Part shown: positions 1,530-9,928 of the stretch, piece by piece | Numbering within the stretch: the stretch's first letter is position 1 | Layout: every line of letters starts with the position of its first letter | From: a virus | Virus record (IMG/VR): IMGVR_UViG_3300037493_000740 | Span: 1-20,019 of that record | Length of the DNA: 20,019 nucleotides | Direction: 5' to 3' (one strand) | Notes under the pieces: model-generated | The model's input: only the letters and a program-made list of their open reading frames with translations | Told to the model about the DNA's origin: nothing | Database searches by the model: none | Made by a program: the position numbers and the translations under genes

Positions 1530-1648
1530 TAGTTATGGTTTTTTACTACCATGTTTAGTAGGCTCTTACTACCATGTACGTGATAGTAATAACCTAACAA
1601 GCAATGGTAGTTGGACTACCACTTACATGATAGTACGTTCCATAACTA
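1530..1648. repeat. Nested direct and inverted repeat block
   Basis: Two 21-bp direct repeats (1568-1588 and 1615-1635; 18 of 21 positions identical) each run from ACTACCA to TGATAGTA. A partial third copy, ACTACCATGT, lies at 1545-1554. The second copy is fused to an inverted partner, giving TGGTAGT-TGG-ACTACCA at 1605-1621. The whole block is bracketed by 9-bp inverted arms, TAGTTATGG (1530-1538) and CCATAACTA (1640-1648). This arrangement is typical of protein-binding arrays (operators or iterons). Confidence 0.7.
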
Positions 1649-1725
1649 TAATATTTTATAATTCCTACACAAAAATTAATTATTTATTAACTCATACTAT
1701 TCATTAAGTATCCTATAATAATTAG

Positions 1726-1733
1726 TACCTTTG
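1726..1733 (+). promoter_or_regulatory. Candidate Bacteroidota -7 promoter box TACCTTTG
   Basis: TACCTTTG matches the TAnnTTTG consensus of Bacteroidota primary sigma promoters and lies 21 bp before the ATG at 1755. Transcription would begin around 1739-1741, leaving a short leader. No good TTTG -33 box is seen at the usual distance, so the match is only partly supported. If it is real, a TTG start at 1731, which lies inside the box, is ruled out. Confidence 0.45.
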
Positions 1734-1754
1734 AAGACACCTTTAACAGATAAG

Positions 1755-2534
1755 ATGAATATTAGAAAAAGAATGTTCTACGATATTGAGGTTTCCTATT
1801 TTATCATCAGCGCATGGAGACTAGGATATAATCTCTCAATACAACCCCATCAAATTATTAAGTACCCTGCAATTATCTGTCTCTCCTGGAAATGGGAAGG
1901 AGAAGATACTGTACAAAATCTTAGATGGGATAAGAAGCAATGTGATAAGACTTTGCTAACAAACTTCATAAAAGAGTTAGACAAGGCAAATCAAATTGTA
2001 GCACACAACGGTGACAGGTTTGATTTAAAATGGCTACGCACAAGAGCTGTCCTACACGGACTAGAAATGAAACCTAGATATGAAACTATAGATACTCTTA
2101 AGATAGCTAAGTCTCAATTCAGTTTTGCATCTAATAAATTAGACGAGTTAGGTAAATTCTTAGGAGTTGGTCAGAAAATTCCTACCGACTATTCCTTGTG
2201 GGATAGAATCTGTCAAGAAAAATCTCCTGAAGCGCTAGACGACATGGTTAAATATTGCGATGAAGATGTTAGATTACTAGAAAGAGTATTTGATAAGATA
2301 CGACCTTATGGTAAAGCACAATTTAACTACGGCAAACTTTACGGGGACGACAATTGGTCTTGTCCAGAATGCGGTAATTTAAAAACTACAGTCAGCAAAG
2401 CCTACACTACAGCAATGGGTACACGTAGATATTATTTACGTTGCAAAATTAACAAATGCAATACTAATTTCCCAGTAAGTAATAAAACCTACCTTAAAAT
2501 GATGGAGTGGAAAGTACTTAATCCTACTATTTAA
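1755..2534 (+). CDS. DEDD-type 3'-5' exonuclease with C-terminal zinc ribbon
   Basis: A predicted RNase H-fold exonuclease of the kind related to the proofreading domain of family B DNA polymerases; it would digest nucleic acid from 3' ends using two metal ions. The three Exo motifs are visible: ExoI FYDIEVS (D10, E12), ExoII AHNGDRFD (N85, D90) and ExoIII YCDED (Y167, D171), so it is of the DEDDy type. A C-terminal extension carries a four-cysteine zinc ribbon (CPEC at 203-206; C230 and C235) that could bind DNA or RNA. No polymerase domain follows, so it is a stand-alone enzyme. The frame also has an upstream TTG at 1731, but this lies in a promoter-like box, so ATG 1755 is chosen (259 residues). 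It is the first plus-strand gene after the divergent hub. Processing of replication intermediates or degradation of host nucleic acid are both possible. Confidence 0.82.
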   Translation: MNIRKRMFYDIEVSYFIISAWRLGYNLSIQPHQIIKYPAIICLSWKWEGEDTVQNLRWDKKQCDKTLLTNFIKELDKANQIVAHNGDRFDLKWLRTRAVLHGLEMKPRYETIDTLKIAKSQFSFASNKLDELGKFLGVGQKIPTDYSLWDRICQEKSPEALDDMVKYCDEDVRLLERVFDKIRPYGKAQFNYGKLYGDDNWSCPECGNLKTTVSKAYTTAMGTRRYYLRCKINKCNTNFPVSNKTYLKMMEWKVLNPTI

Positions 2535-2618
2535 CTATCACCTTTATATATTTTTACTATCAAATTTGGATAGTAACTATATTATTATGATATTTGTACT
2601 ATCAATTATGTATATTTG
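2533..2618 (+). promoter_or_regulatory. Intergenic operator/promoter region with TACTATCA repeats
   Basis: The gap holds AACTATCA at 2533-2540, a perfect inverted repeat TACTATC-AAATTTG-GATAGTA at 2555-2575, and another TACTATCA at 2597-2604. TATATTTG at 2611-2618 matches the TAnnTTTG promoter box. The same octamer, inverted as TGATAGTA, occurs twice in the hub upstream of the exonuclease gene. The layout resembles an operator overlapping a promoter for the winged-helix gene that follows. Confidence 0.5.
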
Positions 2619-2620
2619 CA

Positions 2621-2926
2621 ATGTATAAGTACAAGGATAATAAAAATAGGAAAATGATAGCAGTGTATCTAGATACAAAAGAAAGTGTATTACTAAAGTC
2701 TAATGATAGGACTTTCCATGTACTATTTCACATCTTACGTCAACTAGACTTTGAGAGAAATCTGTGGTATGCAGATAAAGAAAATAAAATAATCATCATG
2801 AACAAATTGGGAATATCACCTCCTACTTTAGATAAGCATCTAGCCTCTCTAAAGGAAAGGGATTTAATAAGAACAGCAGAAACACGAGGAAGATATAGAT
2901 TAAATCTAGAAATCTTTTCAATGTAA
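2621..2926 (+). CDS. Winged helix-turn-helix DNA-binding protein
   Basis: A small basic protein of 101 residues from ATG 2621. The C-terminal half has the pattern of a winged helix: MNKLGISPPTLDKHLASLKE as helix-turn-recognition helix, then RDLIRTAETRGRYRLN as the wing. The N-terminal half (VYLDTKESVLL, then a hydrophobic helix FHVLFHILRQL) completes the fold and may mediate dimer formation. Three starts are possible: TTG 2594, ATG 2621 and ATG 2654. If the box at 2611-2618 is the promoter, transcription would start near 2625 and ATG 2654 would be the true start. The stop overlaps the next ATG (TAATG), implying translational coupling. The inverted repeats just upstream make autoregulation likely. 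It could be a transcription regulator or, less likely, a replication-initiator-like protein. Confidence 0.68.
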   Translation: MYKYKDNKNRKMIAVYLDTKESVLLKSNDRTFHVLFHILRQLDFERNLWYADKENKIIIMNKLGISPPTLDKHLASLKERDLIRTAETRGRYRLNLEIFSM

Positions 2927-3502: not shown

Positions 3503-4085
3503 TGAGAGTAAGATATATCGTCAAATTCTAGCTTTCATGAATTTCATGTTAAATCTAACTCCACAAGAACGTGATGTATTAGCTGAACTTATTAGACTGG
3601 ACAATGAGTACGAAGCTCTTCCTGCTGATAAGCGCGCGAAGTTTATTCTATCCACGGACATGCGTAAAGAGATTAGGGATAACCTGAACATTGAAGAGAA
3701 GCAATTTAATGTTATACTATCTAGACTTAAAAGCGATAAAAAATCCTTCATGGGCAAACCGTTACTGGGGGACAACAACGCCCTCCACCCACAATTACAG
3801 TTTAAGCCTGACCAAGACGGATTCCAATTTGAAGTAAATCTCATCATGACTACTATTCCTCCTACTACTAAGAAGTTTACAGAGGAATTGGACGAAGCTA
3901 TTATGGAAAAGAATACTGAAGAACAAGATTACATAGAGGAACAAATTTGGAGCGCTCCCGTACACGACCCTGCAATGGAACATGCTAAAGCTACTATCAA
4001 TGCCGAGAAAGATATTGATGCATCTAAAGTGCCCGTATTTGAAGAAGAAGAATTTGATTTTACTATAGCACCTCCTAATGACTAA
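3468..4085 (+). CDS. Putative helix-turn-helix protein with acidic tail, 205 residues
   Basis: The N-terminal half reads as helices, with YRQILAFMNFMLNLTPQERD followed by a long helix VLAELIRLDNEYEAL and a region IRDNLNIEEKQFNVILSRLK that fits a winged-helix recognition segment. Proteins with a similar pattern occur near the packaging genes of crAss-like phages, but I cannot name this one. The C-terminal third is highly acidic (NTEEQDYIEEQ, FEEEEFDF), possibly a flexible tail that mimics nucleic acid or binds a partner. ATG 3468 lies inside the upstream gene; an internal ATG at 3537 is possible but would cut the first helix. Its last 8 bases overlap the start of the IHF-like gene (ATGACTAA), which points to coupled translation. 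Confidence 0.65.
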   Translation: MKQRKVISLPTNESKIYRQILAFMNFMLNLTPQERDVLAELIRLDNEYEALPADKRAKFILSTDMRKEIRDNLNIEEKQFNVILSRLKSDKKSFMGKPLLGDNNALHPQLQFKPDQDGFQFEVNLIMTTIPPTTKKFTEELDEAIMEKNTEEQDYIEEQIWSAPVHDPAMEHAKATINAEKDIDASKVPVFEEEEFDFTIAPPND

Positions 4086-7498: not shown

Positions 7499-9928
7499 AT
7501 GAGTTCTCCAGTTAAAATGCAAGGATATATTAGTTTCCCTAGACAGAAGCTACCTGATTCCAAGAAAGACGACAATTGGTTTAAAAAGAATATAGACTTT
7601 GCAGAGCACTTGTTAACCTCTGATGTTAACCTACGCTCTAATTTTAAAAACAAAAAGAGTAACTATAATTTAAGGGCTAATATAATTAACGTTAAAGATT
7701 TTGAAAAATACATTAATCCAGACAATCTGGACCTTGAATCATTACCTGCATCTTTTCAGCATGTGGGCATTGAGAATTCTAAGATTAATCTTTTACTAGG
7801 AGAGTATTCTAAAAGAAAAAAAGAATTTAAAGCTTATATTTCTGCTAATGACTCTGACGGAATAGGACGTAAGGAAGAAGAATTAATGAATCAAATTAAA
7901 TCTGAACTTACAGATATAATTAAATCTACTTCTATCTCAGATGAAGAAGTGCAGAAAAGATTAAAGAAATTAGAAAATTACCAAACATACGAATACCAGG
8001 ATGTAGCAGAAATTACTGCTAATAAAATACTTAAGAAAGAATACAAAGAGGGTGACTTCGATTTTACTTTCCTACGTACCTTTGAAGACTTACTAGTTGG
8101 AGGGGAAGAAATAATGTATTGTGGAGTACTTGGAGGCAATCCAGTAATGAGAAGAGTAAATCCTATGAATGTCTATACAATGGGAGGTAACTCTATGTAC
8201 ATTGAAGATGCAGATATTATCGTTGAATACGGATACAAATCTGTTGGACAAATAATTGATGACTATTGGGAAGAACTTTCTGAAGATGATGTAGATTTCC
8301 TAGAAAGAGGAAAAACAGATGCTTCTGCAGGAGGCGGTGGTATAGGACTTAATAGAGATATTTCTGTATATGATTATTACGGAGAACAAGGAGCACTAAG
8401 TATTTTCCATCCTAATGAGATGGGAACTAGGACTTTCTCAGGAGCCTTTGATACATACGGAAACGTAAGAGTACTTAAAGTATGTTGGAGATCGAGAAGA
8501 AAGATTGGGGAATTAACTTTCTTTGACGATGACGGCCAGGAACAAAAAGATTGGGTTCCCGAAGATTACAAAGTTAAAAAAGATTTAGGAGAAACTGTAA
8601 AATGGATATGGGTAAATGAGTGGATGGAAGGTACTAAAATTGCTGACCATATTTATACGGTAATGCGCCCTGTACCTTATGCTTCTAAATCACTTGTAAA
8701 TAAATCTAAAGGAACCCCTCCATATGTAGGCTCAGTAAACTCTACCAATGACTACAAAGTTCAGTCCTTAATGGACATTATGAAACCTCTTACATACTCT
8801 TATGACATTGCCTATTACAAAAGAGAGCTTGAAATTGCTACATATAAGGGTTCCTTTACTGCTATCAATTCCTCCCTTATACCTTCAGGTTGGGACCCAA
8901 AAGAGTGGATGCGATATGTTACTATAAATAAGTTTGCTTGGCTAGACCCAACTAATGAAATACTTAAAGGACCTTCTCAAGGTAAATCCGCGGGAGCCTT
9001 TAATACACTTACTGCTACTCAAGTAAATATAGGTGACCCTCAAGCAATTGGGATGTATACTAACTTACTAGTAGATATAGAAAATACTTTAGGCAAACTA
9101 GCAGGCGTATCAGGCGCGCGCGAGGGTCAAGTAAGTAATAGACAATCTAACGGTAGTGTAGAGACGGAAGTATCACAAACTTCTCATATTACTGAAAAAT
9201 GGTTTGCAATAGATGCTAACTTCCGTAAAAGAGTTCTTACTAAATTCCTAGAAGCTTGTAAATATGCATACAAGAAAAACCCTAAGAAAGGACAGTTCTT
9301 ATTAGACGACATGGGCCAACATATGGTGACTAAGTTTGATGAGTTTGTTTCTTCTGAATATGATGTGCATATTTCTAATTCAACTAATGATACCCAGTTA
9401 TACGATGATCTTAGAGCACTTTCTCAAGCAGCTATCCAAAATGGCCAAGCTACTATCTCAGACCTTATTGCAATTACACAATCTGAATCTGTACAAGAAG
9501 TCTCAAGACGTTTAGAAGATTCTGCTAGAAGAATTAAAGAAGAAGGTCAACAAATGGAAGAAAAGAAAATGGCTTCTCAAGAAGAGCAAACTAAAGCAAT
9601 GCTTGAAGATAAAAATGCTCAACGTCAAATAGAAGTTAAATTCCATGATGATGATATCGCAGTAAAACGTGAGCAAATACAAGCTGACTTACAAATTGCA
9701 GGTATGAAAGAAATGAATACTAATACTAGACATGCTATAGACGGAGAAAGAGTTGATACAGATAAAAACGGAATAGACGATTATTTAGATATCAGACGTA
9801 CCGATGTAGATGAGAAATATAAACAAGATCAGATTAGATTAGGAGAAGATAAATTAACTGAACAAATAAGATCTAATACTGCTAAAGAAGAAATAGCAAG
9901 AGAAAAAGTAAATAAACCAACTAAATAA
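7499..9928 (+). CDS. Portal protein
   Basis: The dodecameric channel at one capsid vertex through which DNA enters and leaves. Evidence is its place directly after the large terminase, its length (809 residues, usual for portals of Bacteroidota phages), and features of the fold: an N-terminal region with charged helices (about 100-180), a central mixed region, and a GVSGAREGQ segment around residue 540 followed by a helix-forming stretch (SVETEVSQTSHITEKWF), a common pattern in phage portals. From about residue 660 to the end it is a long, charged, coiled-coil-like tail rich in Glu, Lys and Gln. Within this tail a loop DTDKNGIDDYLD (753-764) matches a calcium-binding EF-hand/dockerin loop. 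A weak terminator-like hairpin follows the gene. Confidence 0.87.
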   Translation: MSSPVKMQGYISFPRQKLPDSKKDDNWFKKNIDFAEHLLTSDVNLRSNFKNKKSNYNLRANIINVKDFEKYINPDNLDLESLPASFQHVGIENSKINLLLGEYSKRKKEFKAYISANDSDGIGRKEEELMNQIKSELTDIIKSTSISDEEVQKRLKKLENYQTYEYQDVAEITANKILKKEYKEGDFDFTFLRTFEDLLVGGEEIMYCGVLGGNPVMRRVNPMNVYTMGGNSMYIEDADIIVEYGYKSVGQIIDDYWEELSEDDVDFLERGKTDASAGGGGIGLNRDISVYDYYGEQGALSIFHPNEMGTRTFSGAFDTYGNVRVLKVCWRSRRKIGELTFFDDDGQEQKDWVPEDYKVKKDLGETVKWIWVNEWMEGTKIADHIYTVMRPVPYASKSLVNKSKGTPPYVGSVNSTNDYKVQSLMDIMKPLTYSYDIAYYKRELEIATYKGSFTAINSSLIPSGWDPKEWMRYVTINKFAWLDPTNEILKGPSQGKSAGAFNTLTATQVNIGDPQAIGMYTNLLVDIENTLGKLAGVSGAREGQVSNRQSNGSVETEVSQTSHITEKWFAIDANFRKRVLTKFLEACKYAYKKNPKKGQFLLDDMGQHMVTKFDEFVSSEYDVHISNSTNDTQLYDDLRALSQAAIQNGQATISDLIAITQSESVQEVSRRLEDSARRIKEEGQQMEEKKMASQEEQTKAMLEDKNAQRQIEVKFHDDDIAVKREQIQADLQIAGMKEMNTNTRHAIDGERVDTDKNGIDDYLDIRRTDVDEKYKQDQIRLGEDKLTEQIRSNTAKEEIAREKVNKPTK

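Follow-up and report, generated by a model that had tools for sequence, protein, structure and literature searches.

A winged-helix protein of 101 amino acids encoded at position 2621 of the window (the whole stretch of 20,019 nucleotides of viral DNA that was analyzed) probably binds inverted repeats of 21–22 bp, represses its own gene and, via an upstream array of such repeats (UE), controls the junction of two opposed gene blocks. The sequences themselves show the two arrays, how well these are conserved, that they are locally restricted in relatives sharing this array type, and that they co-vary with the protein. The features concerned are the following (a strand is given where one applies):

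1544–1565: UE site 1, a TACTACCA half-site with a degenerate right half (from the sequence)
1567–1588: UE site 2, a 22-bp inverted repeat, TACTACCATGTACGTGATAGTA (from the sequence and relatives)
1590–1611: UE site 3, half-site TGGTAGT at 1605–1611; weak in the window's array type, with a better palindrome here in type B and in L130
1614–1635: UE site 4, a 22-bp inverted repeat, GACTACCACTTACATGATAGTA (from the sequence)
1726–1733, plus strand: TACCTTTG, which fits the Bacteroidetes −7 box; perhaps the exonuclease promoter
1755–2534, plus strand: PolB-type 3′–5′ exonuclease with zinc-ribbon-like C-terminal cysteines (weak match); a cargo gene between the arrays, missing in many relatives
2532–2552: promoter array site S1 (TAACTATCA...; from the sequence)
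2554–2576: promoter array site S2, TTACTATC(AAATTTG)GATAGTAA
2574–2595: degenerate promoter array site between S2 and S3 (from family D1)
2589–2596: imperfect −7-like box GATATTTG (by its fit to TAnnTTTG)
2596–2618: promoter array site S3 (GTACTATCAATTATGTATATTTG), overlapping the −7-like boxes
2611–2618, plus strand: −7-like box TATATTTG directly 5′ of the winged-helix ATG (by its fit to TAnnTTTG)
2621–2926, plus strand: winged-helix protein, 101 amino acids, recognition helix at residues 67–79 (from a profile match and a model)

The phage was assigned to the Crassvirales by its TerL (32.9% to Cellulophaga phage phi14:2 over 94%) and gene order, and represents an apparently undescribed crAss-like lineage. 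UE is located at the point where leftward and rightward gene blocks diverge. In the relative G001 (91.5 kb), the leftward genes include those for PolA, primase, helicase, a Sak4-like and an exonuclease VIII-like protein, and the rightward block comprises terminase and the genes following it. The family A DNA polymerase of G001 is split at 81851–84816 into ORFs of 592 and 82 amino acids that flank an endonuclease VII/HNH-type ORF, an arrangement resembling insertion of a homing element. For crAss001, passages of two papers (PMC8375218; PMC10136315) describe transcription of a small early module followed by the replication genes and the late structural genes, with expression timing that correlates with gene orientation.

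A sequence-only reading had drawn attention to an octamer on both sides of the exonuclease gene. Exact copies are present at 1581–1588 and 1628–1635 (TGATAGTA) and at 2555–2562 and 2597–2604 (TACTATCA), and copies with one mismatch at 2533–2540 (AACTATCA) and 2568–2575 (GGATAGTA); all of these coordinates proved correct when the letters were read, the exact copies also by search. The copy at 2568–2575 lies, as proposed, in a perfect inverted repeat, forming part of the right arm of 2554–2576 with its perfect 8-bp arms. Absent from the earlier list were two further octamers at 3992 and 16242, both within long ORFs, and a variant of the half-site with T-to-C at position 6 (TACTACCA at 1544 and 1567, GACTACCA at 1614). 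The six octamers of the window compare with 1.29 ± 1.09 expected from 100 dinucleotide shuffles (maximum 4), and four of the six fall in the two intergenic stretches named earlier. In regions picked after the fact, two octamers each were found at 1540–1645 and 2535–2620, versus local shuffle means of 0.012 and 0.013, and none of 5000 shuffles reached two in either; for the entire 1200–1754 region (two octamers, shuffle mean 0.047), 5 of 5000 shuffles did.

The genome-wide count was run on relatives, with the 20,019-base record itself as G000. G001 and G002 (88.0 kb), which have the same array type, contained 10 octamers each, four of each at the same two spots, versus 5 and 4 copies of the reversed pattern. 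In these same-type relatives, copies outside the two spots are close to the reversed-pattern background; in G003 and G004, whose upstream array is of another type built on a different half-site, the counts were 11 and 12 versus 7 and 3. The octamer is real and locally enriched, but it is a half-site of 21–22 bp inverted repeats rather than a full site, and these repeats recur with a period of approximately 23 bp in the upstream array and of 20–22 bp before the winged-helix gene.

UE spans 1544–1635 and comprises about four sites; sites 2 and 4 are 22-bp palindromes, and sites 1 and 3 are weaker. The starts of sites 2 and 4 are 47 bp apart in the window and 48 bp apart in type B. UE was found in 32 of the 33 near loci (window counted), the remaining one (L077) being an incomplete locus. 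The array types vary at most sites together: type A has TACTACCA/TGATAGTA, type B TATACCT and type E CTATTACGG, and types C and D have TACTRTYA with other centers. In type E (L127, L130), UE has shifted to CTATTACGG, yet the promoter sites are still TACTATCA-like.

In a matrix scan of the window, G001 and G002, the densest half-site clusters were UE (6, 7 and 7, respectively) and the promoter array (4 in each), followed by clusters of 2, 3 and 3; because the matrix was built from such sites, only their absence elsewhere is informative. In type B, UE was the densest cluster in G003 and G006 (5 each), and in G004 UE and the promoter array both scored 4; the promoter array was not second densest in G003, where it scored 3 and another place 4, nor in G006, where it fell outside the top five. 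Since the two densest half-site clusters of the window, G001 and G002 lie at the UE/promoter locus, this locus probably contains the type A targets, a restriction that fits autoregulation plus junction control, or else an origin, better than a regulon spread over the genome. Motif-free palindrome and 8-mer scans did not single out UE genome-wide; it was among the top five windows of G000, G001, G003, G005, G006, G011 and G013, with many ties.

Further elements were observed around UE. A second conserved and co-varying palindrome to its left (1471–1495, ACCTAC TGT GTAGGT, TTACCTATAC) has a 6-bp stem and often a 3-nt loop, and in L004 three half-repeats change together (ATCTAC..GTAGATTTATCTATAC); it could be an early promoter hairpin. 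This intergenic region also has repeats with a TAACCAC core, for the most part spaced by about 40 bp, with copies at 1284 and 1352 in the window (68 bp apart), four in G006 (8147–8303) and four in G009 (27201–27322). Elsewhere in these genomes the word is scattered, with one close pair at 2007/2031 in G006 and one at 62149/62164 in G009. A leftward promoter candidate in the right flank of UE (TTGACA...TAGTTATG) was discarded, as it is not conserved within the window's own group.

The promoter array of the winged-helix gene (2532–2618) likewise comprises about four sites, starting at approximately 2532, 2554, 2574 and 2596, 20–22 bp apart. An S2-like palindrome and the S3 word TTTGTACT[A/G]T were both present in 31 of the 33 near loci (window counted), with a start-to-start spacing of 42 bp in 29 and 41 bp in two, equivalent to four helical turns; none of the 21 far loci has either. 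This count scored L127 and L130 as without sites (their aligned start lies further on), and related sites were seen there by eye. The −7 box of Bacteroidetes promoters has the consensus TAnnTTTG, and the putative operator S3 overlaps the promoter predicted on this basis for the winged-helix gene, a layout consistent with autoregulation. The −7-like box ends two bases before the ATG, similarly in many relatives, which suggests that the transcript may be leaderless or nearly so.

The two octamer regions had been taken for the promoters of the winged-helix and exonuclease genes. The assignment stands for the former, but UE is not the private promoter region of the exonuclease, because it is also present in relatives without this gene and lies about 120–210 bp upstream of it. 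The slot between UE and the winged-helix promoter (1640–2530) contains no gene, the exonuclease or other sequence (e.g., L054, L071, L072, L079, L066). No UE-like array was found in the flanks of the exonuclease relatives at 25 loci (L009–L033), of which 15 were inspected by eye; in the other 10 together with L012, a count of octamer and TACTACCA copies gave none (0 of 11). L012 has a single ACTATC/GATAGT inverted repeat downstream of its exonuclease gene.

The protein encoded at 2621 matched PF01022 above the cut-off (23.5 versus 22 bits). Its AlphaFold2 model (pLDDT 84) places the recognition helix at residues 67–79 and gave structural matches to many winged-helix proteins, the best with a Z score of 8.1, which is common for this fold. 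Fold and helix-turn-helix match both identify it as a winged-helix transcription regulator. A search of 50,697 phage records yielded no convincing homologue (one partial, nonsignificant match, E = 0.1), and none of 82 candidates from a profile scan of bacterial genome contigs was confirmed. The gp12 protein of crAss001, encoded at a similar position, was unrelated by comparison. The recognition helix letters differ by array type (A, PPT; B, [VTA]P[GA]; C, P[VA]T; E, ITT). Helix and UE type do not correspond one to one, since PPT is shared by type A and some members of type D.

Co-variation in the near clade was evaluated with the winged-helix protein, the exonuclease and TerL as partners, using distance matrices whose p-values take no account of shared ancestry. 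Among the 10 exonuclease carriers, several of which are near-duplicates, UE distance correlated with winged-helix distance at r = 0.90 (partial r = 0.92 given the exonuclease). For UE and the exonuclease, although these lie nearer each other, plain r was 0.28 and partial r −0.47 given the winged-helix protein. At the 28 loci with TerL (a requirement of this test, which left out L066, L078 with its longer array and L084 with its truncated protein), the partial r was 0.80 for UE and the protein given TerL, versus −0.07 for UE and TerL given the protein. The recognition helix gave a partial r of 0.23 beyond the rest of the protein, versus 0.74 for the rest; linked inheritance hence explains part of the near-clade signal, because the helix adds little beyond the remainder. 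L073 is the sole near locus with an Asp71-to-Ala exchange in the recognition helix (Asp in 31, one truncated), and its in-register half-sites carry G instead of C as their third letter, both in UE and in the left S2 arm, although it is one lineage and some half-sites retain C. The register was judged by eye, because the automated count includes off-register words. The far locus L118 also has Ala at position 71.

The sister clade consists of more distant relatives whose winged-helix proteins are 46–55% identical. Its junction has instead two palindromes with rapidly changing arms, followed by a gene for a 171-amino-acid protein (L114, 2918–3430) with a helix-turn-helix-like segment, judged by eye to be a recognition helix; the protein matched no Pfam family. 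Of 17 loci checked, 16 have the palindromes at a distance of 32 bp, the 17th (L113) having one palindrome within its sequence. Six segments were paired with distinct arms: KAMFL with GGTACTA, KSTFI with GGTGTTA, RDKFF with GTCCCCT, ESMFS with ACTGCTA, ESTFL with ACTGTCA and PSGFS with TGCAA. Thirteen of the 21 far loci were scored, and in these the correspondence was one to one, with 13 of 78 locus pairs sharing both segment and arms and none sharing only one. The far loci left out were four near-duplicates (L108, L112, L113 and L115), L094, whose sequence includes no upstream DNA, L122 and L148, which lack the second gene, and L101, whose palindromes are imperfect; the helix letters of L101 are those of L117, and the right arms match whereas the left arms differ. 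The arms correlated with the segment at a partial r of 0.70 given the rest of the 171-amino-acid protein, versus −0.10 for arms and rest given the segment. L138 is farther from L114 than L141 is (0.32 versus 0.26), yet it has the same segment and arms as L114.

A circuit of UE and the promoter array with the winged-helix protein as predicted binder is well supported by this co-variation. The protein had been named earlier as the natural candidate to bind the octamer, and it is indeed the best candidate, judged by co-variation and by the sites over its own promoter region. The octamer would then be one half of an operator that the protein binds as an inverted repeat of 21–22 bp, and occupancy of the approximately four sites over the promoter would repress the winged-helix gene. 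Occupancy of UE would set transcription away from the point where the leftward-read replication genes meet the rightward-read structural genes, with early expression to the left most likely lowered and expression to the right adjusted. That the protein binds and represses, and that it governs early versus late expression, is, like any function as an origin, what we infer from the arrangement. The small self-controlled circuit postulated earlier agrees with the sites overlapping the protein's own promoter region, but it is too narrow a description, because UE stands at the junction of opposed gene blocks.

A comparable arrangement is the switch of phage phi29, in which the small DNA-binding protein p4 acts on multiple inverted repeats that separate the early genes from the divergently oriented late genes. 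The arrangement here differs in having about four regular sites, a second array on the regulator's own promoter and a cargo gene that can separate the arrays; we know of no sequence relation between p4 and the winged-helix protein. In TubR/tubC, a winged-helix protein of about 100 amino acids is associated with an upstream repeat array and autoregulation, features observed or predicted here as well; no tubulin-like or ParA/ParM partner was recognized among the ten window proteins scanned. For crAss001, a passage of PMC6235969 states that DNA-binding proteins are predicted where each of the two opposed genome halves begins, and the position at the divergence of opposed blocks is shared with the protein described here. 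The junction stretches scanned in crAss001 and phi14:2 contained no palindromes comparable to the UE array.

UE could alternatively be a replication origin, with initiator repeats beside an A+T-rich stretch and the winged-helix protein as an autoregulating initiator, as in lambda ori or iteron plasmids; we consider this unlikely. Lambda ori has four imperfect palindromes about two helical turns apart that diverge together with the winged-helix O protein, and the regularly spaced UE repeats diverge together with the encoded winged-helix protein in the same manner. Unlike the lambda repeats, UE is intergenic rather than inside the initiator gene, and the protein of about 100 amino acids has one recognizable DNA-binding domain and no visible second, helicase-loading part. 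The cumulative GC-skew minimum lay within about 1 kb of UE in four of nine relatives (G001, G002, G003, G006), but GC skew is confounded with the switch in transcription direction, the minimum fell uninformatively at the contig start in another four, and in G009 it was 1.8 kb from the winged-helix gene (the position of UE there was not located). Profile matches to RepL (3 of 43 members) and Phage_rep_O (2 of 43) were weak and patchy, and L144 matched an O-like PHROG weakly (E = 0.0018). A passage of a review mentions two repL copies in p-crAssphage (PMC10136315).

That the arrays are bound by another protein, such as the IHF/HU-like protein encoded at 4078 or the virion RNA polymerase, with the winged-helix gene merely linked, is improbable. 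Co-variation of neighbors can arise by linkage, most of the near-clade signal lies outside the recognition helix, and the leftward strand of the window, from UE to the first gene read in that direction, contained no TAnnTTTG box that could mark an early promoter. Against this, the exchangeable exonuclease, whose gene separates UE from the winged-helix gene, shows no co-variation with UE after correction for the winged-helix protein, and the sister-clade palindromes track the helix-turn-helix-like segment and not the rest of the 171-amino-acid protein. That UE acts as a structured RNA within the leftward transcript's leader is very improbable: the window's minus strand folds at z of about −4.5 and several relatives also beat their shuffles, but the strand favored by z varies (plus in L076 and L127, minus in the window and L130), arm mismatches show no clear strand bias (59 G·T versus 45 A·C), no Rfam match came near the cut-off in 1200–2800, and the RNA element was dropped as the main reading for lack of a consistent strand-specific fold.

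Autoregulation and junction control by the winged-helix protein would represent an ordinary kind of regulator, newly seen in what is apparently an undescribed crAss-like lineage. Among titles and opening lines of abstracts in the open-licence literature, there was no description of such arrays. It is conceivable, if distinctly unlikely, that arrays and regulators constitute immunity-like specificity types in crAss-like phages without lysogeny, with the pair inherited as a unit across exchangeable cargo. A resident genome could then repress an incoming genome of the same type, supporting a carrier state like that discussed for crAss001.

To our knowledge, the switching between early and late gene blocks of crAss-like phages has not been described in molecular detail. 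The results supply a named regulator, two mapped candidate operator arrays and a natural series of matched protein and site variants in two sister clades. With short DNA fragments and small proteins, junction control and the recognition code thus become directly testable.
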